Part shown: piece after piece, positions 3,605-41,341 of the stretch
Position numbering within the stretch: the first letter of the stretch is position 1
Layout of the letters: each line of letters starts with the position of its first letter
Assembly: GCF_020905345.1 (NCBI RefSeq)
Contig: NZ_JAJJMO010000001.1
Coordinates: 1-64,000 of the forward strand
Source: Flavobacterium pisciphilum
Lineage (GTDB): Bacteria > Bacteroidota > Bacteroidia > Flavobacteriales > Flavobacteriaceae
Length of the DNA: 64,000 nt
Direction: 5' to 3'
The notes under the pieces: generated by a model
Seen by the model: the letters and a program-made list of their open reading frames with translations, nothing else
Databases searched by the model: none
What the model was told of the DNA's origin: nothing
Program-made: the position numbers and the translations under genes

Positions 3605-4234
3605 TTAGCCTACTAAATACCAAAAATCTAATTTCATTGTTGTTTCATCAGCCATTTCCAACATAGGTTTGCAAAATGAATTGGACATATAACCAAAACA
3701 AATTTCTTTGGTTTTACCTAATGTTTCTCCGAATGTGATTTCAGAATAGGTATTGTCTTGTATTCTACCAATAAAATGGTCTTTAGTATTTTCAAAAGTA
3801 CTTAAATATTCTTTTTCAATGTTTTCAGATACGATTAATAGTTGCTCTACTTCGTTTTCATTTTTAAGTTTAAATGTACCACATTCGATACAAGAAAAGG
3901 AAGACGGAATCTTAAAATTAGTTTTTAAAACTTCATGATACTCCATTTTTATACTTGGCCCATCAATTAATTTGAAGAAATCCTGTGCTTCTGGAAGCTT
4001 TATTAAGTTTTCTTCTATTTTTTTTAAATCTCCAAAATCAGACACGAAAAGAATATTTGCATATTCGTTTTTAAAGTTGCGTACTAAGCAGTGAAAAATA
4101 ACACCATTTTGTTTTGCTAATATACTTTCAAATTTTAGAACTGCATTTATTAGTTCGTCATCAGTTACATTTTCTTTTTTATTGAAACTTGTAAATTCCA
4201 TTGCTTTTACAAAATCATTGCTTACTCTAATCAT
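3605..4234 (-). CDS. Hypothetical protein, 209 aa
   Basis: I do not recognise the family. The protein is soluble, acidic and has no signal peptide or membrane segment. It alternates short strands and helices and reads like two consecutive alpha/beta units: residues about 20-95 (a helix after TDDELINAVLKF, strands GVIFHCLVRNF and ANILFVSDFGD) and 110-205 (FKLKNENEVEQLLIVSENIEKEYL, TYSEITFGETLGKTKEICFGYM). That would fit a duplicated ferredoxin-like or dimeric alpha/beta-barrel fold, which is inference. It is the first gene of a two-gene unit with the DUF1905/YdeI protein. Confidence 0.6.
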   Translation of the reverse strand: MIRVSNDFVKAMEFTSFNKKENVTDDELINAVLKFESILAKQNGVIFHCLVRNFKNEYANILFVSDFGDLKKIEENLIKLPEAQDFFKLIDGPSIKMEYHEVLKTNFKIPSSFSCIECGTFKLKNENEVEQLLIVSENIEKEYLSTFENTKDHFIGRIQDNTYSEITFGETLGKTKEICFGYMSNSFCKPMLEMADETTMKLDFWYLVG

Positions 4235-4624
4235 TTTTATATTTTAAATTAATACTTCTGTAAAAGTAAACTGAGGTGGTGACAGCCCTATGTCAACAGT
4301 AAAACCAATCTTTGATTGTTTTTTTGAATACTAAGAATTTGATAAAATAATTGAAAAATCATTTTTAAACTATACAGAGTAGGTACAAGTGTAGTGTCGT
4401 TTTTGTAAAAAGGTGATGAGGTTTAGGTAAGCGATATAAAGCGGAATAAAAAGTGTAAAGTCTCTTTTTTAAGTTAACTATTTGATAAAAGTAGTTAAAT
4501 AGCCTGTTTCGAGTAGATGTGAGTAGGTTGTTATTGCCCGTTATAGCTTTAATAGGTTTAGTTTTGTACGTAAAATACTGTATAATACTTCGCCTGATTC
4601 TTCATCAGCCTTGGATAGGAGTAG

Positions 4625-26831: not shown

Positions 26832-26891
26832 TTGTGTATCAATTTTTTTACTATATTTGATAAATAAATGTAATTAAAAATTATCAAATAT
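26832..26891 (+). promoter_or_regulatory. Promoter and overlapping operator of the antitoxin gene
   Basis: A -33 TTG (26832-26834) and a -7 TATATTTG (26852-26859) lie 17 nt apart, an exact fit to the Bacteroidota promoter rule. Inverted arms ATATTTGATAA (26853-26863) and TTATCAAATAT (26881-26891) overlap the -7 element and the start codon. Binding of the encoded HTH protein here would shut off its own transcription; that last step is inference. Confidence 0.6.
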
Positions 26892-27198
26892 GATAGCAGA
26901 AATTATTGCTTTTAAAAAGATAGCAGAAGAACTAGATGAATTAATTACTAATTCACCGTTCAAAAAGAATTATATCATAGAGCAGGTAGGACTTTCTGTA
27001 CCGACATTTTATAGAAAATTAAAAGCACAAACTTTTACAGCGGATGAAATGATGTCAATAGCAAAAATAATCTCTCCAGAAGAATACTATAGAATGGAAT
27101 TAATGTCTGAGCTTGAGGAAGCTAGAAATGATTATAAAAATGGGAAAACGATTCCGCATAGCGAAATGATAGAGAGAATAAAAAATAAAAAGAAATAA
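26890..27198 (+). CDS. HTH-type antitoxin (likely partner of the convergent RelE/ParE toxin)
   Basis: A 102-aa protein. Residues about 25-65 form a helix-turn-helix (KKNYIIEQVGLSVPTFYRKL followed by TADEMMSIAKII). The tail (ELEEARNDYKNGKTIPHSEMI, then a Lys-rich end) is the extended, toxin-embracing type of segment common in type II antitoxins (compare the D-x-x-x-GK-x-x-x-x-E-x pattern). An operator-like inverted repeat overlaps its start. The stop codon lies 2 bp from the stop of the toxin gene on the other strand, an unusual tail-to-tail order for this class. Pairing is inferred from adjacency and the tail. Confidence 0.75.
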   Translation: MIAEIIAFKKIAEELDELITNSPFKKNYIIEQVGLSVPTFYRKLKAQTFTADEMMSIAKIISPEEYYRMELMSELEEARNDYKNGKTIPHSEMIERIKNKKK

Positions 27199-27200
27199 GA

Positions 27201-27488
27201 TTATATTTCAAAGTTTATCTTTTTTTGTCTGTTATCATGAAAATACATTAACGTAATTTTTCCTTTGTAAATAGTATAAAACAAAGAGATTTGTTTTACA
27301 ATTAGAATGATACTACACTTAAAATCATTGTTATAGCGACCTAAATATGGGTTTTTTGATATCAAATCAATTACTCTCAGTACTTCAGAATCAAATTTAG
27401 TAGCTACTTCTAAATTCCAATTTTCTAATAGATACTCACAATTTTGTAAATATGTCTTTTCGGCTTTTAGAGTCCAAACGACTTCCAT
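27201..27488 (-). CDS. RelE/ParE-family toxin
   Basis: A 95-aa basic protein with the RelE/ParE fold pattern: an opening strand EVVWTLKAEKTYLQN, helices CEYLLENWNLEVATKFDSEV and LRVIDLISKNPYLGR, then strands CSIILIVKQISLFYTIYKG and ITLMYFHDNRQKK. Members inhibit gyrase or cleave mRNA on the ribosome; which applies here cannot be told. It is encoded convergently to the HTH protein, so it must have its own promoter in the 27489-27670 gap, where I found no clear TANNTTTG element. Both genes lie between the 76-bp direct repeats. Confidence 0.88.
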   Translation of the reverse strand: MEVVWTLKAEKTYLQNCEYLLENWNLEVATKFDSEVLRVIDLISKNPYLGRYNNDFKCSIILIVKQISLFYTIYKGKITLMYFHDNRQKKINFEI

Positions 27489-28106: not shown

Positions 28107-30023
28107 ATGAATACAATTGCTGAGCATATCGCAGATTTCTTGAAAGAATATCCGCCATTCGATAACTTAACTTTTCAAGAACTATCTGAGATTGCGACCA
28201 ATATTCGTGTTATTAATTTAGAAAAACACGCTGTATTGTTTCAGGTTAATGACACCTTGCACGATAGTTTTTACGTGGTTGCTTCAGGCGTTATTAATTT
28301 ATCGGTAATTGCCGATGCCGAAGAAACATTATTAAATAAATGTCATGATGGTGATATATTTGGGTTACGCCCATTTTTTGCCAAGAATAACTATATGATG
28401 ACGGCAAAAGCCAGAGAAGAAAGTATTGTGTACGCAATACCAATTGCTGTCTTTAGGCCTTTTGTTGCAAACAATCCAGATGTTTTAAATTTCTTATTAG
28501 AAAGTTTTGCAGCAAATACGCGTCATACCAAAGACAATGCAGAGTTTAAAGGAAATCATATTTCTGATAATATATTCTATTCAGACCAACAATCAGAAAT
28601 ACAATACATACAATCTTTAAGCTATAATAACTCACCATTAATAGCCAAACCAAGTGATATTGTAAAAGATGTTGCTATACGCATGACTGATGCTATGGTT
28701 GATAATATTGTCGTTTGTGACAGTAATAAACCTATTGGTATTGTTACTGACGCCGATTTGTCTTCTAAAATTGCTACAGGTAGATTCTCAATTGATGAAA
28801 CTGTAGATAGAATCATGTCCTCACCTGTTGTAACTGTAATAGAAAATGTTTCATTAGCCGAAGCGCAATTGTTGATGCTAAAGAATAATGTAAGTCATTT
28901 ATGTGTTACAAAAGACGGAACAAGTAAATCTGCTGTAAAAGGAGTTATCTCAGAGCATGATTTAATTGTTGCACAGGCTAGTAATCCGGGAGTATTGATA
29001 AAAGAAATTAAACGTTCGCAATTGCCTAAGGATTTGAAACAAATCAGAGATCGTTTATCAGACTTGATTCAGAATTACATACAAAAGAATATTCCACTTT
29101 CACATATAAGTAATATTGCAAATGAAATTAATCTGGCGTTGATAAAACGTTCAGTTGAGCTTTCAATTTTAGAGATGGGCTCACCTCCTGCTCGTTTTGC
29201 ATGGTTAAGTATTGGGAGTCAAGGAAGAAAAGAACAGCTTTTATTGACGGATCAGGATAGTATTTTGATTTTTGAAGATGTAACTGCAGATAAATACCGT
29301 GATGTAAAAGATTACTTCTTGCATCTGGCAAAAAGAACTACAGCTACCTTAGAAAAAATAGGATATGAATATTGCCCTAATGGACATATGGCTAGTAATA
29401 TGTTGTGGTGTAAGTCGCTGACAGACTGGACAAAACAATATAACAGTTGGATGAATACTCCAGGTGAAAACAGCAATGATTTAAGTAGTATTTTCTTTGA
29501 TTATGAGATTGTTTTTGGAGAACCAAAAATTGAAGAAGTAATAGAAAATGTGATATTCAAAAACGCCATAAACAATACATTATTCTTTGATTTCTTAGGA
29601 AATGATGCGTTGAGAAAGAATTCACCTTTAAGCTTCTTTAAGAAATTTATTGTTGAAGAAGAAGGTCCACATAAATTTAAGTTTGATATTAAAACACGTG
29701 CATTGATGCCTTTAATTGATGGTGCACGTTTACTTATATTGAGCTCGAATATAAAAGGAATTAAAAATACCTATTTGCGATTTAAGCAATTAGCGATTAC
29801 TGATTCTAAAAATGCTGATATTTATCTTAGTTGTGCTGAAGCATTTTTAACCTTGTCAAAATTTAGAACTGTAGAAGGATTAAAAAATGATGATTCAGGA
29901 CAATATATCAATTTGAGAGAACTATCAAAAAGCGATAAAGAAAAATTAAAAAATGCATTAGCTCCGATGAAAGATTTAGAAGAGCTTATAAAAAGTAAAT
30001 TTCAACTGACCCAATTTTCATAA
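28107..30023 (+). CDS. Cyclic-nucleotide-binding / CBS-pair / DUF294 nucleotidyltransferase-like protein
   Basis: A 638-aa cytosolic protein with three modules. Residues about 15-130 form a cNMP-binding barrel (GVINLSVI, GDIFGLRPFF). Residues about 170-295 are a CBS pair (VVCDSNKPIGIVTDADLSSK and VTKDGTSKSAVKGVISEHDL), likely binding adenine nucleotides. Residues 330-460 are the DUF294 nucleotidyltransferase-like core with GSQGRKEQLLLTDQDS, the Gly-Ser plus Asp-x-Asp type signature of that fold. A helical DUF294 C-terminal domain follows. It starts 1 bp upstream of an exonuclease-like gene, a conserved pairing in bacteria. It is a signalling or regulatory enzyme with an unknown substrate. Confidence 0.9.
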   Translation: MNTIAEHIADFLKEYPPFDNLTFQELSEIATNIRVINLEKHAVLFQVNDTLHDSFYVVASGVINLSVIADAEETLLNKCHDGDIFGLRPFFAKNNYMMTAKAREESIVYAIPIAVFRPFVANNPDVLNFLLESFAANTRHTKDNAEFKGNHISDNIFYSDQQSEIQYIQSLSYNNSPLIAKPSDIVKDVAIRMTDAMVDNIVVCDSNKPIGIVTDADLSSKIATGRFSIDETVDRIMSSPVVTVIENVSLAEAQLLMLKNNVSHLCVTKDGTSKSAVKGVISEHDLIVAQASNPGVLIKEIKRSQLPKDLKQIRDRLSDLIQNYIQKNIPLSHISNIANEINLALIKRSVELSILEMGSPPARFAWLSIGSQGRKEQLLLTDQDSILIFEDVTADKYRDVKDYFLHLAKRTTATLEKIGYEYCPNGHMASNMLWCKSLTDWTKQYNSWMNTPGENSNDLSSIFFDYEIVFGEPKIEEVIENVIFKNAINNTLFFDFLGNDALRKNSPLSFFKKFIVEEEGPHKFKFDIKTRALMPLIDGARLLILSSNIKGIKNTYLRFKQLAITDSKNADIYLSCAEAFLTLSKFRTVEGLKNDDSGQYINLRELSKSDKEKLKNALAPMKDLEELIKSKFQLTQFS

Positions 30024-30024
30024 T

Positions 30025-30621
30025 ATGTTAGACTGGCTGAAAAATATCAACAAAGAATACCCTGATTTCTGGAAAGAGTACCTCACTAAATTTGAGACTA
30101 AATCAGAGCGTTTTGTTGTATTATCTACCGAAACATCAGGATTAAACCCAACTAAAGATGTGATTCTGTCTATTGGTTCATTTGCAGTAATAAACAATAG
30201 TATTCATATTCAGGATAGTTTTGAAGCAGTTTTGCTGCAGTATAAATTCTTTCATGATAACGGACTTACAAATGAGTTTATTATTGAAAGTAAAATGGAA
30301 AAATTACCAGAACCAGATGCACTTAAAGCTTTAATTGAATATATTGGAAATGGTGTTTTGGTTGGGCATCATATTAATTTTGATGTAGAAATGATTAATG
30401 CAGCCCTAGAAAAACTAGACTGTGGAAGATTAAAAAATGAAGCTTTAGATGTAGATGTTATGTATCGTAAGCTTCATGATATTAATGACAGACAGTTCTC
30501 TCTAGATGAATTGTGTGAGATTTATAAAATTCCAAAAAGCGAAAGAAATTCATCTTCAGAAGATGCATATAAAATTGCCTTACTATTCTTGAAACTTAAA
30601 TCAAGATTAGGGATAAAGTAA
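30025..30621 (+). CDS. DEDD 3'-5' exonuclease-like protein with altered catalytic motifs
   Basis: A 198-aa protein of the DnaQ/epsilon fold: strand RFVVLSTETSGLNP at residue 30, VLVGHHINFDVEMIN near 112 (motif II) and SSSEDAYKIALLFL near 180 (motif III). In active family members motif I reads D-x-E-T; here the Asp is Ser34 (STETSG). The His five residues before the last Asp in motif III is absent. Only part of the metal-binding set is left, so nuclease activity is doubtful. One base separates it from the CBS/DUF294 gene and the two are surely co-transcribed. Alternatively, a changed metal site could still work with weak activity. Confidence 0.82.
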   Translation: MLDWLKNINKEYPDFWKEYLTKFETKSERFVVLSTETSGLNPTKDVILSIGSFAVINNSIHIQDSFEAVLLQYKFFHDNGLTNEFIIESKMEKLPEPDALKALIEYIGNGVLVGHHINFDVEMINAALEKLDCGRLKNEALDVDVMYRKLHDINDRQFSLDELCEIYKIPKSERNSSSEDAYKIALLFLKLKSRLGIK

Positions 30622-31113
30622 TTATTCCTTTACTCTAATTGACTCAATAAAACGTCCATGATGACTTATTGAAATTGGTATTACAGCTTTTGTAATAGCA
30701 TCAATTAGATATGGAATCCCTTGGTCTTTAAGTATTTTACAGTTGCTGTTTAAAGAGATGATTCTATTTAAATTTTCTCTTTTAGAAACAGCAACTGTAT
30801 GTATATAATCTTTTGTGATTGTTGTTTGAGTATGATACAAGTTGTTGTTTATAGATACAGTACCAAAACGGGCACATTCGTAAATGCAAATTAACTTTGT
30901 TGGAAAATAGCCATTTATTTTAGTGTCGCGATTGTATATTTTATAAGCAGCTTCTTTTCGACTCCATAAATTCCAAACCATTATTTCGGGCGTATTAGAA
31001 TTGTGAATGAGCAATTGTTCTTCGTCGGTAAAAATTTTATTTAAAAAACCTTCGCGTTTCCAATTGCTCTCTTGTTGAGCAGTTTTTAGATCAACAATAT
31101 CATTTCCAATCAT
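30622..31113 (-). CDS. 4'-phosphopantetheinyl transferase
   Basis: A 163-aa protein with the two Sfp/AcpS-type motifs: GNDIVDL at residue 3 and WSRKEAAYKIYN near residue 50, which bind Mg2+ and coenzyme A. It transfers the phosphopantetheine arm to a carrier protein. The ACP gene overlaps it by 4 bp (ATGA), so its substrate is almost certainly that ACP (Ser41). It is the last gene of the seven-gene type III polyketide operon and ends convergently with the exonuclease-like gene, with no gap. Confidence 0.88.
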   Translation of the reverse strand: MIGNDIVDLKTAQQESNWKREGFLNKIFTDEEQLLIHNSNTPEIMVWNLWSRKEAAYKIYNRDTKINGYFPTKLICIYECARFGTVSINNNLYHTQTTITKDYIHTVAVSKRENLNRIISLNSNCKILKDQGIPYLIDAITKAVIPISISHHGRFIESIRVKE

Positions 31114-31364
31114 TTTTCACTTAGTTTAGATTGAATAATGCTCAAAGCAGCTTTCGCATTAACCATTTTTTCCATTGATTCGTTATCAATTGTAATATCA
31201 AAGGCTTCTTCAACATCTAAGACAATGTCGACTAAATTGGCAGAATTAATATTTAAATCAGTTATGAAGTTTGTTTCTTCTGTGAAATTTTCAAAAGCAG
31301 TATCATTCTTAACATAAGGCTTTACAATGTTTTTTAATTCGGTTAGTAGTTGTTGGTTATCCAT
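31110..31364 (-). CDS. Acyl carrier protein (dedicated)
   Basis: An 84-aa acidic, helical protein from the ATG at 31364; a TTG two codons earlier is rejected. The carrier motif reads DLNINSANLVDIVLDVEEAF, with Ser41 as the phosphopantetheine site. The usual D-S-L around the serine is N-S-A, a sign that it is not the housekeeping AcpP. It sits between the ketosynthase and the transferase that should activate it. It carries the growing or finished acyl chain in this pathway. Confidence 0.88.
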   Translation of the reverse strand: MDNQQLLTELKNIVKPYVKNDTAFENFTEETNFITDLNINSANLVDIVLDVEEAFDITIDNESMEKMVNAKAALSIIQSKLSEK

Positions 31365-31391
31365 ATTCAATAGTTGTTTTTTAAATGAGAG

Positions 31392-32663
31392 TTAGTTATA
31401 TTTTTTTAAAATCACGCAACCATTCACGTCACCAAAACCAAAACTAGCTTTGGCAATAATATTTAGATCGGAATTAATTAATTGAGTTGGGATTTTAGAT
31501 TTGTCTATTATAGATGTAATTTCTGGATGTAGATCTTCACAATTTACATTTGGAAAAATAAAACCTTGATGTAATTGCAATACCGAAGCTACAAGTTCTA
31601 TGCTTCCTGCAGCTGATAAACAATGTCCTATAGTTGATTTTAATGCATTTACATAGGGAAAATCATTGCCCTTACGATTTAATGCAATGCTCCAATTTTC
31701 AATTTCCAAAGCATCTTTACTAGTAGCGGTAAGATGTCCATTAATCAAATCAATTTCAGAGGCTGAAACTGAAGCATTTTCTAGTGCGTTGCTAATGCAT
31801 TTTTGTACAGCTGTTGCGTTTGGGGCTGTCATGCTTCCGTTCCCACGCTGTCCGCCTGAGTTTATATTTCCCCCCAAGACTTCAGCATAAATTCGTGCTC
31901 CCCTATTTAGAGCTGTTTCTAAATCTTCTAACACCAAGGCTCCTGCCCCACTTCCTGGAACAAAACCCGAAGCGCTTGCACTCATTGGTCTAGAGCCACT
32001 CTCGGGAGTATCATTGTGTTTGAAAGTACAAACCTTCATTGCATCAAATCCTCCCCAAATATAAGGTCCAGAGTCACTAGTGCTACCTGCTAAAATTCGT
32101 TTGGCTTGACCTAGTTTGATTCGTTCGTACGCCATTAAAACACTTTCGGTACCAGTTGTACAAGCCGATGAATTGGTGGTGACTTGATTTCCAAGTCCTA
32201 GTTTGCCGCCTAAATAAGCGCTTACGCCACTAATCATGGTTTGAGCTACAACAGTACTTCCTAATCTTCTGGTTTGAAAATCATCAATTTTATAGATGCT
32301 TTCTCTAAATTTTTCTATTCCAGATGTTCCTGCGCCAAAGATTGTTCCGCTATCCCAATCAGGATCATCATTTTCTAGAATTGCTAAGCCTGCATCTTTC
32401 CATGCGTCTAAACCTGCAATTACACCATATAAAATTCCAGTAGCATTAAAATTCCGTAATTCAAGCTCAGAAAAATAAGCAGCTATCAATTCAGGAGATA
32501 ATGCTGGTTTTCCAGAAATATGACAAGAAAATTGCAAGCGTTCTAATTCAGCATCGTATTTAATACCTGATCGGCCATTTTTTAATGCATCTGTAAATGC
32601 ATCAAGCCCCACCCCATTTGGGGCAACGACTCCAAGACCTGTAATGACAACTCTTTTTTGCAT
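31392..32663 (-). CDS. Beta-ketoacyl-ACP synthase (KAS II-like)
   Basis: A 423-aa condensing enzyme from the ATG at 32663 (MQKRVVITGLGVVAPNG); the longer frame would overlap the dehydratase gene. The catalytic triad is complete: Cys168 in NSSACTTG, His310 in NGHLTATSKDA and His347 in KSTIGHCLSAAG. The usual NAHGTST loop is NGHLTAT, so it departs from housekeeping FabF. It extends an ACP-bound acyl chain with malonyl-ACP. With the dehydratase and ACP beside it, it most likely builds the starter for the type III polyketide synthase. Ketoreductase and enoylreductase steps would come from the primary fatty-acid system. Confidence 0.9.
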   Translation of the reverse strand: MQKRVVITGLGVVAPNGVGLDAFTDALKNGRSGIKYDAELERLQFSCHISGKPALSPELIAAYFSELELRNFNATGILYGVIAGLDAWKDAGLAILENDDPDWDSGTIFGAGTSGIEKFRESIYKIDDFQTRRLGSTVVAQTMISGVSAYLGGKLGLGNQVTTNSSACTTGTESVLMAYERIKLGQAKRILAGSTSDSGPYIWGGFDAMKVCTFKHNDTPESGSRPMSASASGFVPGSGAGALVLEDLETALNRGARIYAEVLGGNINSGGQRGNGSMTAPNATAVQKCISNALENASVSASEIDLINGHLTATSKDALEIENWSIALNRKGNDFPYVNALKSTIGHCLSAAGSIELVASVLQLHQGFIFPNVNCEDLHPEITSIIDKSKIPTQLINSDLNIIAKASFGFGDVNGCVILKKYN

Positions 32664-32686
32664 TTGCTTATTTTTAAGGTTAAAAT

Positions 32687-33115
32687 TTAAACAATCATTC
32701 CGGCAATCATCCCAGAACAAACTTCAACTCCAAGCTGGTTTTTCATAGTTACCTTGCATTTTAATTTCCCAAATCTAAAATACATTTTTTCTGAAACAAC
32801 TGTTACTTTTTCATTTGGATAAACAGGTTTTAAAAAATCTATTTCAATTGATGTTAAGGCAATTGAGGTATTTTTAGTGAATTCTTTGTTTAATAAAAAT
32901 ATACCTAAGCATACCAATCCAATTTGTGCCATTACTTCAGTTAAGATTACACCCGGAGTAATAGGATTTGCTATAAAATGGCCTTTGTAAAAATCTAAAT
33001 TTTCATCAAAATAGTAGGTTCCCTCTACTCCATTTTCAGATATAGAAATAACTTCGTCTACAAACAAAAAAGGTTTGCTATACGGTAATTTAGATATAAT
33101 ATCTTGATTTGTCAT
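32687..33115 (-). CDS. 3-hydroxyacyl-ACP dehydratase (FabZ-like hotdog)
   Basis: A 142-aa hotdog-fold protein. LPYSKPFLFVDEV at residue 8 and FYKGHFIANPITPGVILTEVMAQ (in FabZ, H-F-P-x-x-P-x-x-P-G) around residue 45 include the catalytic His and the helix of the active site. The C-terminal strands (IEIDFLKPVYPNEKVTVVSE) complete the fold. It removes water from 3-hydroxyacyl-ACP. It lies 14 bp after the polyketide synthase and 23 bp before the ketosynthase in the same operon. Confidence 0.87.
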   Translation of the reverse strand: MTNQDIISKLPYSKPFLFVDEVISISENGVEGTYYFDENLDFYKGHFIANPITPGVILTEVMAQIGLVCLGIFLLNKEFTKNTSIALTSIEIDFLKPVYPNEKVTVVSEKMYFRFGKLKCKVTMKNQLGVEVCSGMIAGMIV

Positions 33116-33129
33116 TTCTAATTCTATAT

Positions 33130-34182
33130 TTAAAATTGCAATAGAACACGTTGAGCCGAAAAACCCGGTCCAAAACTCAACATTAAACCCCTTTGTCCCT
33201 TTTTTGGTTTTTTGTCCATAATTTGCTCTAAAACATATAAAACAGTTGCACTGGACATGTTTCCGTATAATCTAAGGACTTCTTTCGTGTCATCGATATT
33301 CTTACCTAAATCAGAAAATAATTCTTCTACAGTTTGTATTATTTTTTTTCCTCCAGGATGAAATATTAAATGATCTATATCTTCTATTTTTAATTTGTTC
33401 TTGGCTAAAAAAGGATGGATGATATCTGGAAAATGAGAGGCAATTGTTTCTGGAACTTCAATATCCAGTACCATTTGTAACCCGGTGTTTACAAGTTTAA
33501 AACCCATCATATGGATGTTATCATAAAAATGATACATTTCTTCATTAATAATTTCAGGGCCATTATCATCTTCATGTGAAGAAAGAAGAGCACAAGCGGC
33601 ACCATCTCCAAAAATTGCTGCTGATACAATATTTGCCATCGAGAAGTCATCTAACTGAAAAGTTGCAGTTGGACTTTCTACAGCAATTACCGCAGCTCGT
33701 TTTCCAGGATTGGCTTTTAAAAAGTTTTTAGCATAGATAATTCCAGAAATACCAGCAGCACAGCCCATTTCGGTTACAGGGAGACGCACGATATCTTGAC
33801 GCAGTTTGAGTTTGTTTATAAGATAGGCATCCAAAGAAGGAATCATAATACCTGTACAACTTACTGTAATGATATAATCTAAGCTTTCAGGCTTCCAGTT
33901 TGATTTATCCAAGGCTTTTTTTAAGACTTTTTCTCCTAAATCTATTACCTCACGGACATAAATATCGTTTCGATCCTCAAAAGAAGTATTAGAAAAAACC
34001 TCGATGGGATCCATAATAGAGTATCGCTTATCGACAGCAGCACCCTCAAAGATTTTTTTTACCTTTCGGATAAAGCGTTCATCTTGCCCCAAAAGCCACG
34101 AATCTAAAAAAGGGATAATTTCTTCAGTTGTTCTTGAATATTTGGGTAATTGCTTAGTAATGGCGGTTATTTTTACACTCAT
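33130..34182 (-). CDS. Type III polyketide synthase (chalcone-synthase superfamily)
   Basis: A 350-aa enzyme starting at the ATG at 34182, which overlaps the stop of the methyltransferase gene (ATGA). The catalytic triad of the family is present: Cys141 (TEMGCAAGISG), His275 (LIFHPGGKKI) and Asn308 (YGNMSSATV), together with the GDGAACALL and SFGPGFSAQ C-terminal motifs. It condenses an acyl starter with malonyl-CoA units and cyclises the product, usually to an alkylresorcinol or alkylpyrone in bacteria. Neighbours supply the starter (ketosynthase, dehydratase, ACP) and modify the product (methyltransferase, FAD enzyme), the order known from the Streptomyces srsABC and Bacillus bpsAB pathways. 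Confidence 0.92.
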   Translation of the reverse strand: MSVKITAITKQLPKYSRTTEEIIPFLDSWLLGQDERFIRKVKKIFEGAAVDKRYSIMDPIEVFSNTSFEDRNDIYVREVIDLGEKVLKKALDKSNWKPESLDYIITVSCTGIMIPSLDAYLINKLKLRQDIVRLPVTEMGCAAGISGIIYAKNFLKANPGKRAAVIAVESPTATFQLDDFSMANIVSAAIFGDGAACALLSSHEDDNGPEIINEEMYHFYDNIHMMGFKLVNTGLQMVLDIEVPETIASHFPDIIHPFLAKNKLKIEDIDHLIFHPGGKKIIQTVEELFSDLGKNIDDTKEVLRLYGNMSSATVLYVLEQIMDKKPKKGQRGLMLSFGPGFSAQRVLLQF

Positions 34183-34892
34183 GTTTTTGAAATTATCCAT
34201 TGATATCGGAAAGCCCATTTCCATTGAATGGTATATTTTTTTAAGTTTAACTGTTTAGAGAAATCAAGTAATTCATGTTTTTTAAATCCTCTTAAAATAG
34301 ATGTTAAGCCATCTTTTTTAGACATTCCGTTTAATTGGGTAATAAAACACATTGCTTGAAATAAACGATAAGAAACAATACTTCTGTGTAAATCATTTAT
34401 TACTACTCCAAGTCTTGCATTAGCATTAAAAATGGTTGCTAGATTGATTATTTCATTATTTTTAAAATGATGTAAAGTCAAAGTACACAATATAATATCG
34501 TATTCTAATTTACTAAATGATTCATCAAATATATCTTCGCAACGGTAAATTATATTGGGGTAATGTTTAGATAGTTTTCGAGCGTAATTTATTGTAAAAG
34601 CATTGGCATCGATACCTATTAATTTAAAATTCCAATCGTGTTTTAATCCATAATCGGCTAATTTCCTTAACATGTCTCCGTTTCCGCACCCTATATCTAC
34701 AATAGTTATTGTTTGATCTTTGCTAATACCATCCAATAATTTTTCGACTCCTTGTAAAGTTAAGTAGTTTCCTCCAAGAAGCTGATTTATTTTAGCGATT
34801 TTATCCAATGCGTTTTGTAAAACATCCCCTTTTAAATTGAAGTCATCCATAATCTCTGGATCATCCGTTCTATATTTGGTTTTTATAGCCAT
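34179..34892 (-). CDS. SAM-dependent methyltransferase
   Basis: A 237-aa class I methyltransferase. Motif I is IVDIGCGNGDMLRKL near residue 63, followed by an acidic ribose-binding position (LIGIDANAFTINYARKL) and motif IV-like YDIILCTLTLHHF. Its stop overlaps the start of the polyketide synthase by 4 bp and it lies 2 bp after the FAD-enzyme gene. By analogy with SrsB and BpsB it probably O-methylates (or C-methylates) the polyketide ring; the site is not deducible from sequence. Confidence 0.85.
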   Translation of the reverse strand: MAIKTKYRTDDPEIMDDFNLKGDVLQNALDKIAKINQLLGGNYLTLQGVEKLLDGISKDQTITIVDIGCGNGDMLRKLADYGLKHDWNFKLIGIDANAFTINYARKLSKHYPNIIYRCEDIFDESFSKLEYDIILCTLTLHHFKNNEIINLATIFNANARLGVVINDLHRSIVSYRLFQAMCFITQLNGMSKKDGLTSILRGFKKHELLDFSKQLNLKKYTIQWKWAFRYQWIISKT

Positions 34893-34894
34893 TA

Positions 34895-36025
34895 TTAATT
34901 TAGAATTATAGATTTACCATGTGTTCTTTTTATAATTTGAGGTAATAAAAATGGAAATTGAATTAAGAACCACATTACCACTGTAGCTCCTTTCTTGTTT
35001 TGTAATAGCGAAGCAAGAAATCGACCTGTTTTTAATCTTCTCTTAAAATTGTAGTTCCATGATTTGGTGTACTCCTTTTCAAGCTCTTTTCTTGAAATGC
35101 TCTTTTTGGTATAAAAATCTATAATTAATTCAGAGGCAATTTTTGCACTGTGAATTGCCATTGCCATACCATTGCCACATAAAGGCTGTATTAAACCTGC
35201 GCTATCTCCAACCATTAGAATATGATTTTCTATTGCTGTTTTTTCTTCAAATGAAATCTGACTTATTGTAAGTGGTTTTTCGAATAGTGGTTTGCTATTG
35301 GTGAAAAATTGTCTTAGATACGGGTTTTTATAAATAATATTAGCTTGAAAATCATCAATGTTTCTGTATTTTTTAAAAGTATCAAAATGAACTAGATAGC
35401 AAATGTTTATTATGTCGTTTTCGACTTTTGAAACACCACAATATCCTCCTTCAAAATTATATAACCCAACGAGATCATTTGCAAATTCTCCGCTGTAGTG
35501 CCCTTTTACTGCAAGCCAAGGAGCTTTTTTTTGAATGAATTTGCGTTGTAGTTTTTGATCAAAATTAGAGCGTTTGCCAAAGGCACCTATGGCTATATTG
35601 GTTACATACGTTTCTGATTTTAAGGTTGTAATAGTAAATAACTCATTCTCAAAACTAATGTCTTCAACAGTATCATGAATTATCTCACATCCATTTTCGA
35701 TTGCTTTTTTATACAGCTGATAATCTAATGTGTAACGACTGAGTCCGAATCCTCCAAGAGGCAATTTGCAATGAATTAGTTTTCCATTTGATGCTGAGAA
35801 TTCTAATCGTGTAATTGCTACTGGGTTCAAGTCCTGAATTTTTAAGTCAAGCCAATCCAGATAAGGTTTGATTTCATTAGAGACATATTCACCACAAACT
35901 TTATGTTTTGGGAATTCGTTTTTTTCAATCAAAATCACTCGTAGTTTCATTTTGGATAAATGAATACCACAAGTAAGCCCTGCTAGTCCCCCACCAATAA
36001 TTACTACATCAGCATTTTTTTTCAT
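34895..36025 (-). CDS. FAD-dependent oxidoreductase (geranylgeranyl-reductase/hydroxylase type)
   Basis: A 376-aa flavoprotein: GGGLAGLTCGIHLSKM near residue 11 binds FAD, VCGEYVSNE follows near 42, and GDSAGLIQPLCGNGMAMAIHSA near 275 is the second FAD motif of the UbiH/geranylgeranyl-reductase group. It is the first gene of the operon. In the comparable Streptomyces cluster a flavin hydroxylase (SrsC) turns the methylated resorcinol into a quinone. A similar oxidation or a double-bond reduction is inferred here. Confidence 0.85.
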   Translation of the reverse strand: MKKNADVVIIGGGLAGLTCGIHLSKMKLRVILIEKNEFPKHKVCGEYVSNEIKPYLDWLDLKIQDLNPVAITRLEFSASNGKLIHCKLPLGGFGLSRYTLDYQLYKKAIENGCEIIHDTVEDISFENELFTITTLKSETYVTNIAIGAFGKRSNFDQKLQRKFIQKKAPWLAVKGHYSGEFANDLVGLYNFEGGYCGVSKVENDIINICYLVHFDTFKKYRNIDDFQANIIYKNPYLRQFFTNSKPLFEKPLTISQISFEEKTAIENHILMVGDSAGLIQPLCGNGMAMAIHSAKIASELIIDFYTKKSISRKELEKEYTKSWNYNFKRRLKTGRFLASLLQNKKGATVVMWFLIQFPFLLPQIIKRTHGKSIILN

Positions 36026-36240: not shown

Positions 36241-36828
36241 TTAGCTTTTATTTATTCTCTCAAAAGATTGAATTATAGAATCCATTTGTCGACTGTATTT
36301 GTTTTCTTGATTTTTAAGTGTCCATGTTATGACCTGATAAAATTTGTCTTTATCTTCAATAAAAGCAAACTTCCAATAATAAAATGTAGAATCAATATCA
36401 GCTTTTCCTGTTATAGAAATAATTCTTGCGTTTAACCCATTTATTGTCGTTTTTTCAAGATCTGAGATAACATCAATAGAAATCCCTCTTTTTGTTATAA
36501 AGTCTAATACATAGTTAGAATAACCATCTAGATTTGATGGATATTGATTATTTGGATCGGTTGCATCATTTATATATATTTTATCAAGAACGGTGTGTTT
36601 GTGAATTGCATCATCAAATTCTGCTTTGGTATCTGTAATGACAATAGTATAGAGTTTCTTTTTAGTATTCTGATATTCTAATATGGCAACTTGGCTTATT
36701 GTATCTGTTTTAGATAAAAAAACTGGTAGATTAATTTTATGTTCATTATCTACTTGTATTGTTTCTGTTTTATAGTCAGATTCACATGAGCAAATAAAAA
36801 TAATCAATAGAGATAATAATTTTTTCAT
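36241..36828 (-). CDS. Probable lipoprotein
   Basis: A 195-aa protein from the ATG at 36828 (MKKLLSLLIIFICSCESD); an upstream in-frame ATG at 36852 gives a poorer leader. A lipobox-like FICSC near residue 15 predicts lipid attachment at a Cys. The mature part has strands and a final helix (YYWKFAFIEDKDKFYQVITWTL, then QMDSIIQSFERI), the shape of the PsbP/DUF1795-like fold often seen in Bacteroidota lipoproteins; that fold assignment is tentative. It is alone, between the polyketide operon and the RHS locus. Function unknown. Confidence 0.7.
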   Translation of the reverse strand: MKKLLSLLIIFICSCESDYKTETIQVDNEHKINLPVFLSKTDTISQVAILEYQNTKKKLYTIVITDTKAEFDDAIHKHTVLDKIYINDATDPNNQYPSNLDGYSNYVLDFITKRGISIDVISDLEKTTINGLNARIISITGKADIDSTFYYWKFAFIEDKDKFYQVITWTLKNQENKYSRQMDSIIQSFERINKS

Positions 36829-37036
36829 TTTTTTATAATTCAAATTAATCATACAAAAATAAAAAATAGTATTTATCTTATTTTAATACCTTTTTGCATG
36901 CTTGATATTAATCTCTATGATAAAAGGGTGTAAAATATAAAAGGGTGTAAAAATAGCATATAGTAATTGTATAACTGAATTTTAATAAAATTTAGCTTTA
37001 TTGTTATATTAGTAAAAATAGTACAAAAAAATTTAT

Positions 37037-37135: not shown

Positions 37136-40100
37136 ATGTTATTAACCGATAACCATTTAACCATTGTGGTAGGGATCGATATCCACTTTACCACTTTACC
37201 TCCATTTAATCCATTTCACCCTTATATAGGTATTGTAATAGATCCATTCGACTATGTACCCTATTTAGGAACCAGTGTGCATGTAAATGGATTCAAACGT
37301 GGGAACTCAGATACCAGCGGTATTATAATCCCTCTAGTTCATATTCCGCTTTTTACCCCACCTTGGCTTATGACACCGATTATCGGACATGAGAGTATGA
37401 ACTTTTTTGCCTCACAAACCGTTTTTTCCGACAGTACCCGAATGAGTCCCAAAGGACATATGCTGATGACTTGTAATGATATTGGGATTCCGCTCTCCAT
37501 GAGTCTAGGAAAAACTAAAGTAGGTAAGAAAATGTTGCCCTTTGCTCCAACACTATTTGCACCAACTTCATTTTCATTACCTATTTCTACAGGAAAACCA
37601 GTAATGGTAGGAGGCCCTTATCCGCCAGATTGGGGAGGAATGCTAACAGGATTAGCAGCAAGTATCGGATTTAGTACGCTTATGAAAAAAGTTAGAGGAC
37701 TTGCTAAAAAAATTAACTTAAAAGGATCAAAAAGCCCAAAAGGACTTAAAGATTCACTCAGAAAATGTGCGCATGATCCTGTAAATCTTATAAATGGAGC
37801 TGTTATTTACGAAGGTAGCGATTTTGATATTGCAAGCCCAATACCATTAAACTGGGAAAGAGCTTGGTACTCTGATTCAAAATATATAGGCTGGCTCGGA
37901 CATGGTGTACACAGTATATATGACCGAGCAGTAGAACTATATCCAGAAGATGATGCATTAGGTCTGCGTATGGACGATGGGAGATTAGTGGTATTTCCGA
38001 CTTTACTACCCGATGAAGAATACTATCTGCGCGAAGAAAAAACAACCCTAAAAAGAACTCAAGAAGGGTATCAAGCCTACGATCATAAAAGCAAGCTATT
38101 TTATAATTTCACCCTATTTAATGGTAAAAAATACCAACTCACCCAAATAGCCAATCATGATGGATTAGCTATTGATTTTGAATTTACAGGTTATCACCTA
38201 AGTAAAATTATTGATGCATCAGGTAGAGAAATAAAAGTAAGTACTAAAGACAGATTTATTCAAAAATTAGAACTTGTAACACTTGAGAAAGACGAATTAC
38301 TAGTAGCCTACGAGTATGACGAGCATTTCAATATGATTGCAATTATCGATGCACTAGGTAAACCAACGCGCATTGAGTACGAAAATCATTTAATGGTAAA
38401 GAAAACCGATCGAAATGGACAAGCCTTTTATTGGGAATATGATAAACAAGACAAGTGTATTCACACTTGGGGCGACGGTGGCTGGCAAGAAGGTTGGATA
38501 GAATACTATACAGCAGAAGGCTATAACATAGTAACCGATGCTAATGGAGCTGTAAGAACCTATTATTACGAGCCAAACCAACTCGTAACCCAAGAGCAAG
38601 ACCCTATGGGTAACAGTATTTTTTATGACTATACTGAGTTCATGGAACTGTACCGAGAAATCGACCAAGAAGGACGAATTACGGGATACAATTACGATGA
38701 TATGGGAAATAAAATAGGTACAACCTATCCCGATGGTACAGAAGAAATGATGTTATACGATGATGAAAACCGTCCGTCGATAGCCATTGATCCCGAAGGA
38801 CAGAAAACAATCTATTTGTATCACAAAGAAAAAGAACATCAGCTAAAAACCATCATTGCACCTGATAAAACAAGTACCCATTTTACCTACAACAAAAAAG
38901 GACTATTGGCAAGCGTTGCCAAAAACAATAATAAATTGCAACTGGTTTACGACCAGCAGCACAATCTTATTGAATGGCGTGAAAACGACCAAAAGCTAAA
39001 ATCTTGGGAGTACAACCATCGAGGGCGTGTACAAGCCATTTACACTCCGATGCAAATGGCAGATTATTTTAGCTATGATGCCTTAGATAGGGTACAACAA
39101 ATTGTAGAGAAAGACAGTAACGTTATACAATTTAGTTATAATAATTATGACGAAGTAATAGCTTTAAAAGACAAAAAAAACAATATCAAGTTTAGTTATA
39201 CCCCACTAGGAAGTCTAGCCACAAGAGAGCAAAACGGTATAAAAGTGCGTTTTGACTACGACAAGATGGAACAGCTTAGTAGTATAAAAAATGAAGATAA
39301 CGAAAGCTATTATTTTGACCGAAATAAAGCAGGGTACATCATGCGCGAAACAGCATTTGATGGCTTAGTAAAAAAATACAACCGCAACCTTGTAGGTGAA
39401 GTGACCAAAATAGACCATGGAGGCGGAAAATATACCGAGTATGAACAAGATGCTTTAGGTCGCATAACTCGAGCTGACTACCACGATGGTACATGGGAAA
39501 CCTATACCTATAACAAAAATGGGCAATTAGTAGAAGCTACAAATCAAAATGTGAGTATCTATTTAGAGCGTAATGTAAACGGACGTATAACCAAAGAAAC
39601 TCAAAAACAACAGCTTGATACTAACGAGAATGGTATCAGTCTTACCGCAACCTACAATGCTTTAGGACAACGTACCAACATAAGTACTAGTTTAGGGGCA
39701 GATATCAACACCCATTACAATAGCAAAGGACAATTAGAGCGTATTGAAGCGCAAAGCAATGAACTCAAAGAACAACATCAAGCTTGGGAAACAACCTTAA
39801 AGCGAGATGAATTAGGACGCGAAATTGAGCGATACGCTACAGGAGGACTAAACATAAAAACGAGCTACAATAGCAGTGGCAAGCAAAAAGAGCAAGAAGT
39901 ATTTGCTAATGGAAAACGTACAGGTTCTCGTTACTACAACTGGGATACGAGCCAACAACTGCGTAGCGTAGTAAACCAACTCACTGGCGGTATGACCTTT
40001 TTTGATTATGATGACTTTGGTAACTTAGCTAAGGCAGATTATGATGGCAAAGGAGAATTGTACAAAACACCTGATGCAGTAGGTAATTTATACAAAACCC

Positions 40101-41341
40101 AAGACCGCAGTGATCGTAAGTATGGCAAAGGAGGAAAACTTTTGCAAGATGAAAAATACCATTACAAATACGATGAACTAGGGAATCTAATACACAAAAG
40201 TACTAGAAATATAAATGATCTGTTACAATTTGCAGCACCAACTAATTGGATGGACAAACTAGCTGGCAACAAAACAGAAGAGACTAGATTACAGCAAGAA
40301 CATGAACAGTGGCAACATGGTGATACTGGGTATACTTGGCTCGCCAACGGAATGCTTGAAAGTGTAACAAACCCAGATGGCAAAGTTGTATGTTTTGAAT
40401 ATGATGCGCTAGGAAGACGTACAGCAAAAATTGCAAACAAAGAAATTTTTAGATACTTTTGGGATGGTAACGTTCTTATCCATGAATGGAAATACGATTT
40501 AAAAGATCGACCAAAGTTAATTGTTGTTGAGGATGACTTAGTATACGATAAACCTGAACCAATTGAAAATCTGACAACTTGGGTATATGAAGATGGTTCT
40601 TTTGTACCGAGTGCTAAGATAATTGGAGAAGAAAAATTTTCAATAATTAGCGATTATATTGGTAGACCAATAGAAGTTTACAGTGAAGTTGGAGAATTAG
40701 TTTGGGAAACGGATTATGATATTTATGGTGGTCTAAAAGATTTTAAAGGAGATAGGGAATTTATTCCTTTTAGACAACTCGGGCAGTATGAAGATATAGA
40801 AACTGGATTGTATTATAATCGATTTAGATACTATAATCCTGATACTGGACTCTACTTAAGTCAAGACCCAATAGGGCTCGCTGGAAATAATCCTAACTTT
40901 TATGCTTATGTCCATGATTGCAATAGTTGGGTGGATGTATTTGGATTATCCGAAATGATTGATCCAAGTTTATTAAATTATTCTCAAGGATATGTAAATG
41001 GTCAAACTGAGGCCTATGAAAAAGCAATGAAAGATGGTACTTGGGATTGGAGCAAATTCCCTGATGATCATCAAACACCTAGTGCATTAAGAGTTGTTGA
41101 AGTCGATGGGAAATTGGTTTCTTTAGATAATAGAAGACTGTTAGCAGCTCAAAATGCAGGATTAACAGAAGTTCCAATGATCAAAGTACAACCTGGGGAT
41201 TCAATGCCTGGAGGCGGGACATATGGTAAAAATTTAAAAGGAAAATTAAATTCAAGACCTAAAAATAGACCAGATTTACCTAAAATTAACTTACCTGCCA
41301 CAGGAACCAATGTTAAACCAACTGTAATTGCATGCCATTAA
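37136..41341 (+). CDS. RHS-repeat polymorphic toxin with PAAR-like N-terminus and ParB-like toxic tip
   Basis: A 1401-aa protein without a signal peptide. Residues 1-195 look like a PAAR-like spike-tip region (HMLMTCNDIGIPLS, STGKPVMVGGPYPPD). Residues 210-1225 are YD repeats (for example FDYDDFGNLAKADYDGKG), which wrap into a shell around the toxin. The core ends with LYYNRFRYYNPDTGLYLSQD, with the DPIGL cleavage-type motif near residue 1244. The last 140 residues vary from family to family; here SALRVVEVDGKLVSLDNRR then LLAAQNAGL resembles the ParB-like nuclease toxins. The gene downstream should encode immunity. No secretion-system genes are in the window, so delivery (type VI or similar) is inferred from the PAAR-like part. 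Confidence 0.9.
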   Translation: MLLTDNHLTIVVGIDIHFTTLPPFNPFHPYIGIVIDPFDYVPYLGTSVHVNGFKRGNSDTSGIIIPLVHIPLFTPPWLMTPIIGHESMNFFASQTVFSDSTRMSPKGHMLMTCNDIGIPLSMSLGKTKVGKKMLPFAPTLFAPTSFSLPISTGKPVMVGGPYPPDWGGMLTGLAASIGFSTLMKKVRGLAKKINLKGSKSPKGLKDSLRKCAHDPVNLINGAVIYEGSDFDIASPIPLNWERAWYSDSKYIGWLGHGVHSIYDRAVELYPEDDALGLRMDDGRLVVFPTLLPDEEYYLREEKTTLKRTQEGYQAYDHKSKLFYNFTLFNGKKYQLTQIANHDGLAIDFEFTGYHLSKIIDASGREIKVSTKDRFIQKLELVTLEKDELLVAYEYDEHFNMIAIIDALGKPTRIEYENHLMVKKTDRNGQAFYWEYDKQDKCIHTWGDGGWQEGWIEYYTAEGYNIVTDANGAVRTYYYEPNQLVTQEQDPMGNSIFYDYTEFMELYREIDQEGRITGYNYDDMGNKIGTTYPDGTEEMMLYDDENRPSIAIDPEGQKTIYLYHKEKEHQLKTIIAPDKTSTHFTYNKKGLLASVAKNNNKLQLVYDQQHNLIEWRENDQKLKSWEYNHRGRVQAIYTPMQMADYFSYDALDRVQQIVEKDSNVIQFSYNNYDEVIALKDKKNNIKFSYTPLGSLATREQNGIKVRFDYDKMEQLSSIKNEDNESYYFDRNKAGYIMRETAFDGLVKKYNRNLVGEVTKIDHGGGKYTEYEQDALGRITRADYHDGTWETYTYNKNGQLVEATNQNVSIYLERNVNGRITKETQKQQLDTNENGISLTATYNALGQRTNISTSLGADINTHYNSKGQLERIEAQSNELKEQHQAWETTLKRDELGREIERYATGGLNIKTSYNSSGKQKEQEVFANGKRTGSRYYNWDTSQQLRSVVNQLTGGMTFFDYDDFGNLAKADYDGKGELYKTPDAVGNLYKTQDRSDRKYGKGGKLLQDEKYHYKYDELGNLIHKSTRNINDLLQFAAPTNWMDKLAGNKTEETRLQQEHEQWQHGDTGYTWLANGMLESVTNPDGKVVCFEYDALGRRTAKIANKEIFRYFWDGNVLIHEWKYDLKDRPKLIVVEDDLVYDKPEPIENLTTWVYEDGSFVPSAKIIGEEKFSIISDYIGRPIEVYSEVGELVWETDYDIYGGLKDFKGDREFIPFRQLGQYEDIETGLYYNRFRYYNPDTGLYLSQDPIGLAGNNPNFYAYVHDCNSWVDVFGLSEMIDPSLLNYSQGYVNGQTEAYEKAMKDGTWDWSKFPDDHQTPSALRVVEVDGKLVSLDNRRLLAAQNAGLTEVPMIKVQPGDSMPGGGTYGKNLKGKLNSRPKNRPDLPKINLPATGTNVKPTVIACH

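Follow-up and report, generated by a model that had tools for sequence, protein, structure and literature searches.

Why a type III polyketide synthase (PKS) gene should lie among genes for acyl-chain elongation is the question raised by an operon of Flavobacterium pisciphilum. The window, namely the whole stretch of 64,000 nucleotides analysed here (contig NZ_JAJJMO010000001.1, positions 1 to 64,000), contains seven adjoining open reading frames (ORFs) on the minus strand at 30622–36025, encoding a flavin adenine dinucleotide (FAD) enzyme, a methyltransferase (MT), the type III PKS, a dehydratase (DH), a ketosynthase (KAS), an acyl carrier protein (ACP) and a phosphopantetheinyl transferase (PPTase). 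Our preferred reading, in which we have moderate confidence, is that a dedicated type II (dissociated) elongation module builds an acyl-ACP starter for the type III PKS, and that the MT and the FAD enzyme act afterwards. Its observed basis is the gene content, the catalytic residues, the separation of KAS, DH and ACP from their housekeeping counterparts, the conserved order, the co-occurrence of PKS and KAS, and the co-retention of both parts where the operon is split. The features are:

34895..36025, minus strand: FAD-dependent oxidoreductase of the GGR/LodB/QhpG superfamily (domain searches)
34179..34892, minus strand: S-adenosylmethionine (SAM)-dependent methyltransferase, PRK06202-like with a score under the cut-off (domain searches)
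33130..34182, minus strand: type III PKS, 350 amino acids from the ATG of MSVKIT, with a Cys-His-Asn triad
33116..33129, minus strand: PKS–DH junction of 14 bp, the site of a FabL-like enoyl reductase (ER) gene in most sampled relatives outside Flavobacterium
32687..33115, minus strand: FabZ-like dehydratase, catalytic His and Glu present (domain searches, residue check)
31392..32663, minus strand: FabF-like elongating ketosynthase (Cys-His-His) of a separate clade (domains, residues, tree)
31110..31364, minus strand: acyl carrier protein whose carrier serine lies in Asn-Ser-Ala instead of the Asp-Ser-Leu of AcpP (NCBIfam, scores)
30622..31113, minus strand: phosphopantetheinyl transferase of the ACPS superfamily with WxxKEAxxK (domain search, motif)

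The preliminary description, made from the letters of the window, had given seven same-strand genes in this order, and the ORFs were recovered accordingly with spacings of –4 to 27 bp: 2 bp between FAD and MT genes, a 4-bp overlap of MT and PKS, 14 bp between PKS and DH, 23 bp between DH and KAS, 27 bp between KAS and ACP (21 bp if the ACP starts at an upstream TTG) and a 4-bp overlap of ACP and PPTase. The Pfam families in the operon are ACPS, ketoacyl synthase N and C, FabA-like, chalcone/stilbene synthase N and C, SAM methyltransferase and FAD oxidoreductase. No Pfam family matches the ACP at E 0.001, and its matches to NCBIfam ACP models all lie under their cut-offs. The FAD enzyme is probably a ring hydroxylase or oxidase. 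The catalytic residues named in the same description, Cys141, His275 and Asn308 of the PKS and Cys168, His310 and His347 of the KAS, are all correct in its numbering. Across the 147 loci of our residue check, in which L036 yielded no extracted PKS frame, the PKS triad is intact in 146 of 146 proteins (145 operon PKSs and the distant PKS of locus L096), the KAS cysteine in 139 of 139, each KAS histidine in 138 of 138 with a letter at the position, and the DH His and Glu in 142 of 142 loci.

Our family sample comprised 199 evenly drawn Flavobacteriaceae genomes from 198 genera. A strong PKS ortholog (best piece at least 361.8 bits) was found in 63 of them, the window's genome counted; PKS matches in the remaining genomes reach at most 176 bits, one being the distant PKS of genome G072 (L096) and the rest not exceeding 60 bits. 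Up to 9 kb per side was fetched around the 62 other strong matches and L096, some of these loci ending at contig edges. A second set, the named loci, holds the best 80 of 575 loci confirmed from at least 592 pattern matches and is mostly Flavobacterium; among these best 80 the closest PKS relatives are Flavobacterium, with a top identity of 94%. Flavobacterium johnsoniae CI04 (L148) is among the operon carriers. Searches by tblastn with the window's proteins detected the FAD enzyme and MT in all 62 family loci, DH, KAS and ACP in 58 each and the PPTase in 18, and in the 80 named loci, some of them contig-truncated, FAD enzyme, MT, DH and KAS in all 80, ACP in 78 and PPTase in 73. For the genes found, the order was unchanged in 142 of 142 operon loci (62 family and 80 named), which argues that the seven-gene grouping is not due to chance and bears out the conservation among Bacteroidota relatives that the preliminary description had proposed to check; in L096, the 143rd locus, the PKS is the only one of these genes. 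Two loci are irregular in other ways. At L095 (G150), the PKS frame is interrupted near query residue 111, leaving two adjoining frames, through decay or a sequencing error, and L130, a 5.3-kb contig of a metagenome-assembled genome labelled Candidatus Nitrotoga, carries a flavobacterial operon with a PKS of 84% identity and is probably mis-binned.

The KAS (E 1e-70) was found in 62 of the 199 family genomes, all of them within the 63 PKS-positive ones (Fisher p 2.5e-51, uncorrected for kinship between genomes). Four PKS loci have no neighbouring KAS: in G066 the contig breaks, in G190 and G144 the KAS lies at a second site, and G138 has none. In G190 and G144 (L334 and L335 with L053 and L070), the operon is split, with FAD-MT-PKS-ER apart from DH-KAS-ACP and both parts retained; of the genomic evidence, this retention of both halves speaks most strongly for their joint function.

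Across the phylum, a PKS-like match (E 1e-30) was found in 171 of 395 genomes. Scores above 600 bits were obtained in 33, of which 30 belong to the same family, and the next-best match has 246 bits. Forty loci from other families were taken from the match list by choice, not randomly. Three of them hold the full operon, with ER in G437 and without it in G328 and G275; six of the other 37 have a PKS-MT-FAD triad, five the PKS with MT only, and 26 neither neighbour by the homology test used, while KAS, DH and ACP were detected in none of these 37 within the fetched stretch (E 1e-3). In the PKS tree, the full operons from other families of the class (L299, L300, L301) branch from within the family; transfer is possible. 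An ICMT neighbour was seen by Pfam in two loci, L265 and L267, and in a PKS tree of 51 rows the operon PKSs lie on the side of the L265 and L267 PKSs (100/99), with the triad PKSs opposite. The operon FAD enzyme is 38–41% identical to those of five triad loci and 32% to that of the sixth, and the operon MT, 28–37% identical to those of the six, matches soluble SAM methyltransferase families and no ICMT in Pfam. These sequence comparisons suggest that the operon may be a mosaic, with MT and FAD enzyme like those of the triads and a PKS from the ICMT-neighbour side; the suggestion is tentative because the PKS tree is midpoint-rooted and has long branches.

These distributions bear on another explanation, in which two pathways share one neighbourhood: PKS, MT and FAD enzyme would use ordinary acyl-CoA to give an alkylpyrone or alkylresorcinol, and KAS, DH and ACP, with or without ER, would make or remodel another fatty acid. 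The separated halves in G190 and G144, the six other-family triads that do without KAS, DH and ACP, and the PKS kept without KAS in G138 are what such an arrangement would produce. It is nevertheless unlikely, as none of the 199 genomes has the KAS without the PKS, the order is fixed and the packing tight, and the ER, itself an elongation enzyme, stays with the PKS half in both split genomes.

Between PKS and DH, most other sampled genera have one more gene, roughly 800 bp long. Its top family is the FabL enoyl-ACP reductase (147 bits versus a cut-off of 328, for one protein, from L044), and its closest solved structure is FabL. Tyr-x6-Lys is present in 61 of 63 frames matched by the ER query, and the two misses, L090 and L147, are not ERs by position and score. 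The extra gene is therefore like Bacillus FabL in best family, best PDB match and motif and differs from it in scoring far under the cut-off, its ER role being predicted. By position and score, a FabL-like ER is found in 53 of the 62 other family loci, the broken locus L095 being scored as ER-less with a 229-bit match out of place, and in 6 of the named loci (best 80 of 575), five from Kaistella or Frigoriflavimonas and one from Flavobacterium. The window operon has no such gene, and a search of its genome found only generic short-chain dehydrogenases/reductases (best 68 bits), as did a search of G127 (best 69 bits). A PKS tree of 81 rows needs 11 label changes to accommodate the 22 ER-less rows (L095 included), and well-supported branches make 8 of these unavoidable; the simplest account is that the gene was lost repeatedly, and regain is possible.

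By its CHS-type domains and Cys-His-Asn triad, the operon PKS is a chalcone synthase-like type III PKS. Its closest solved folds are Pks11 and then CylI, and germicidin synthase Gcs shares 19% identity with it in a fold alignment. The operon PKS clade has fixed active-site changes: a Glu three residues ahead of the catalytic Cys, a Pro at a presumed acyl-tunnel position and a Phe replacing Trp each occur in all 145 operon PKSs compared, and none of 37 other PKSs of the phylum has any of them. An AlphaFold model of the PKS (pLDDT 76.5; 25 sequences, 80–92% identical to the first) has poor stretches at residues 168–174 and 237–242, near the altered positions, and the tunnel shape was therefore not read from it.

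Among NCBIfam models, the PKS matches DpgA best (172 bits versus a cut-off of 425), which recalls the reverse sequence of events, with the ring made first: a DpgA-like ring thioester from the PKS would be transferred to the ACP, where KAS and DH would lengthen it to an aryl-polyene-like molecule, chiefly where the ER is absent. A KAS-DH-ACP set without ER does recall polyene logic, and a flavobacterial type III PKS is mentioned in a cluster labelled T3pks-arylpolyene, with data not shown there, in one report (PMC6139392). However, two PKSs with ICMT neighbours reach equal DpgA scores, 174 and 177 bits, so the match looks generic, and we downgraded the ring-first route on that ground. Furthermore, the operon has no aryl-loading enzyme, the ER is common among the other family loci, and the operon KAS forms a clade of its own, apart from the other ketosynthases (KSs) sampled in these genomes, among them two groups that may be pigment KSs. 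We regard this route as distinctly improbable.

The elongation genes are also set apart from housekeeping fatty acid synthesis, the KAS by tree, and DH and ACP by scores. A KAS tree of 38 rows separates the operon clade (100/100) from FabF, from the FabB of E. coli and from two more KS groups. On the FabF model, the operon KAS reaches 263 bits versus 594 bits for the same genome's own FabF, which adjoins an AcpP with Asp-Ser-Leu. In four genomes, relatives of the operon DH score 155–207 bits versus 42–48 bits for housekeeping copies, and those of the operon ACP 72–104 versus 23–24 bits. The carrier motif of the operon ACP is Asn-Ser in 140 of 140 proteins, followed by Ala in 137 and Ser in 3. 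The preliminary description had held that its proposal would fall if KAS, DH and ACP grouped with FabF, FabZ and AcpP and relatives did not keep the order; neither the KAS tree nor the DH and ACP scores group them so, and the order is kept. That housekeeping type II fatty acid synthase (FAS II) genes merely adjoin a type III PKS is scarcely credible and was rejected, since the enzyme families equal those of FAS II but separate housekeeping copies lie elsewhere (the 594-bit FabF beside AcpP and, within an open frame of 468 aa, a FabZ-like stretch), and the KAS tree, the DH and ACP scores and the co-occurrence with the PKS all distinguish the operon genes from them.

The operon had been called self-contained, which is too strong: it encodes no ketoreductase, FabD, FabH or acyl-activating enzyme, and FabD, FabG and a chain initiator must therefore be supplied by the cell. 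Without an ER, as in the window, enoyl reduction must also be cell-supplied unless the chain remains unsaturated. As to the carrier, activating and elongation enzymes described as additions, the elongation genes are indeed added to a PKS-MT-FAD core, but the PPTase is not constant. A dedicated PPTase was rejected as an essential part, being near the cluster in just 18 of the 62 other family loci (by tblastn, which diverged ones could escape). In G027, G001 and G190, which have no PPTase near the cluster, PF01648 finds one PPTase elsewhere in each; the ACPs of G027 and G001, both counted in the 140 above, retain Asn-Ser, so that this motif does not account for the PPTase.

Our comparison with known systems places the operon closest in logic to Ars of Azotobacter vinelandii, in which, according to two reports, ArsB and ArsC, both type III PKSs, receive the acyl group from the ArsA ACP domain (PMC6274091, PMC3098273). 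In both, dedicated FAS genes are clustered with a type III PKS; Ars has its FAS as one multidomain protein of type I, whereas the operon encodes separate KAS, DH, ACP and, in many relatives, ER proteins together with MT and FAD enzyme. PMC8086630 describes the cylindrocyclophane pathway, where an ACP and type I PKSs carry the growing chain that the type III PKS CylI then receives. CylI, the second-best fold match, is thus fed by an ACP-built chain, as the operon PKS would be, and its pathway differs in extending the chain by type I PKSs and in its halogenation and dimerisation steps. That a FAS can feed a type III PKS is already known in principle from Ars and CylI; the dedicated dissociated module is a new variation on it. 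Gcs of Streptomyces coelicolor, a further precedent, reportedly takes acyl-ACP, and to our knowledge its cluster has no dedicated elongation genes.

The Srs operon is said to combine a type III PKS with a methyltransferase and an oxidoreductase. The same combination is given for Hid (hierridin; PMC8086630) and mycobacterial Pks10 (PMC5916927). Unlike the operon, such three-gene operons have no elongation enzymes or ACP. By comparison with the phylum's own six triads, the operon MT and FAD enzyme are homologous to theirs, whereas the operon PKS tentatively lies outside the clade of their PKSs (100/99). Bps-type systems reportedly pair a type III PKS with an ICMT-family methyltransferase; the operon PKS shares a tree side with PKSs that have an ICMT neighbour (shown for L265 and L267), but the operon has a soluble SAM methyltransferase and a FAD enzyme in place of ICMT, and the elongation module is added. 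antiSMASH surveys label T3PKS clusters in Flavobacteriaceae, and one of them describes a group of Aquimarina clusters, which may or may not be this operon, as different from those of any known compound. No characterised product or role of the operon was found in the open-licence literature searched.

In the pathway that we propose, the operon PPTase, or another of the cell, would activate the special ACP. Judging from the enzyme families, KAS and FabZ-like DH, together with the cell's FabG, would extend an acyl chain on this ACP, with enoyl reduction by the FabL-like reductase of the operon or, in the window, by a housekeeping enoyl reductase. By analogy with Ars, the acyl group would move from the ACP to the PKS cysteine, followed by extension with malonyl-CoA and closure to an alkylresorcinol or alkylpyrone. 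Methylation by the MT and oxidation by the FAD enzyme would then modify the ring, perhaps as far as a quinone, as the Hid and mycobacterial Pks10 operons suggest. The product is probably a ring-headed lipid particular to these bacteria. A more specific version, in which the PKS is committed to the acyl-ACP of its own dissociated line (Asn-Ser-Ala in the ACP, a remodelled PKS site) and makes a lineage-wide envelope lipid or quinone, saturated in its chain with the FabL-like ER and unsaturated without it, as in the window, is possible but rather doubtful.

Several points weigh against a dedicated starter module. G138 (L047) has FAD-MT-PKS-ER with no DH, KAS or ACP in the fetched stretch and no KAS genome-wide; L087 (G118) has no DH between ER and KAS in the fetched stretch. 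The ER is often missing among operon loci, the PPTase is usually not beside the family loci, and ketoreductase, FabD and FabH are lacking from the operon. The co-occurrence of PKS and KAS may come partly from common descent, and the stem of the KAS clade is long (3.32), which leaves its deeper kinship unsure. No tested feature marks ACP docking, and the functions are predicted from the genes. In addition, the operon PKS has its Pro at the position equated with the tunnel Cys205 of PKS18, where 37 of 37 compared PKSs have Cys, so that a long-chain tunnel like that of PKS18 cannot be presumed.

On its 3' side, the operon meets an opposite-strand exonuclease gene that ends at 30621; the stretch 28107–30621 holds a cNMP-binding/CBS/DUF294 nucleotidyltransferase gene and then this exonuclease gene converging on the operon. 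On the 5' side, the next gene (36241–36852, same strand, no Pfam match) is 215 bp off, and the operon likely ends on this side of the FAD gene. A promoter scan gave 34 sites versus 26.4 (sd 5.0) in shuffles, with a model that may not suit Bacteroidota, and a terminator scan 3 versus 2.8; at counts so near the shuffle level, the scan is uninformative. Elsewhere in the window lie an RHS-repeat protein of 1401 aa with DUF6531 (37136–41341) and a small ORF next to an opposite-strand, weakly ParE-like ORF (26890–27488; 21 bits, under the cut-off).

Of 66 relatives' loci, 44 have a gene for a fused-type E1 dehydrogenase (Pfam E1_dh and transketolase domains) some 5.3 kb upstream of the PKS; closer to the operon lie genes for lipoproteins, lipocalin-like in 39 loci and of the OmpA family in 38. 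None of these was seen around the window's operon, and the E1 dehydrogenase, a candidate for precursor supply, could owe its place to mere synteny. A small membrane-like protein of 146 aa with no Pfam match is encoded at or near the site just after ACP in 16 loci (at 3932–4373 relative to the PKS match in L083) and may be an operon member there. YceI-like genes lie near 21 of 66 loci, and five of them (L044, L049, L054, L056, L087) directly precede the FAD gene and share its strand; as YceI proteins are lipid binders, a link of these genes to the operon product is conceivable.

The operon is widespread in the sampled family, with the PKS in 62 of 198 genera and the elongation genes in nearly all of these, and the patchy distribution of the ER provides strain pairs for comparing chain saturation. 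If the handover from ACP to PKS is true, the operon would represent a small, dissociated and dedicated system for substrate uptake by a type III PKS from a carrier protein.

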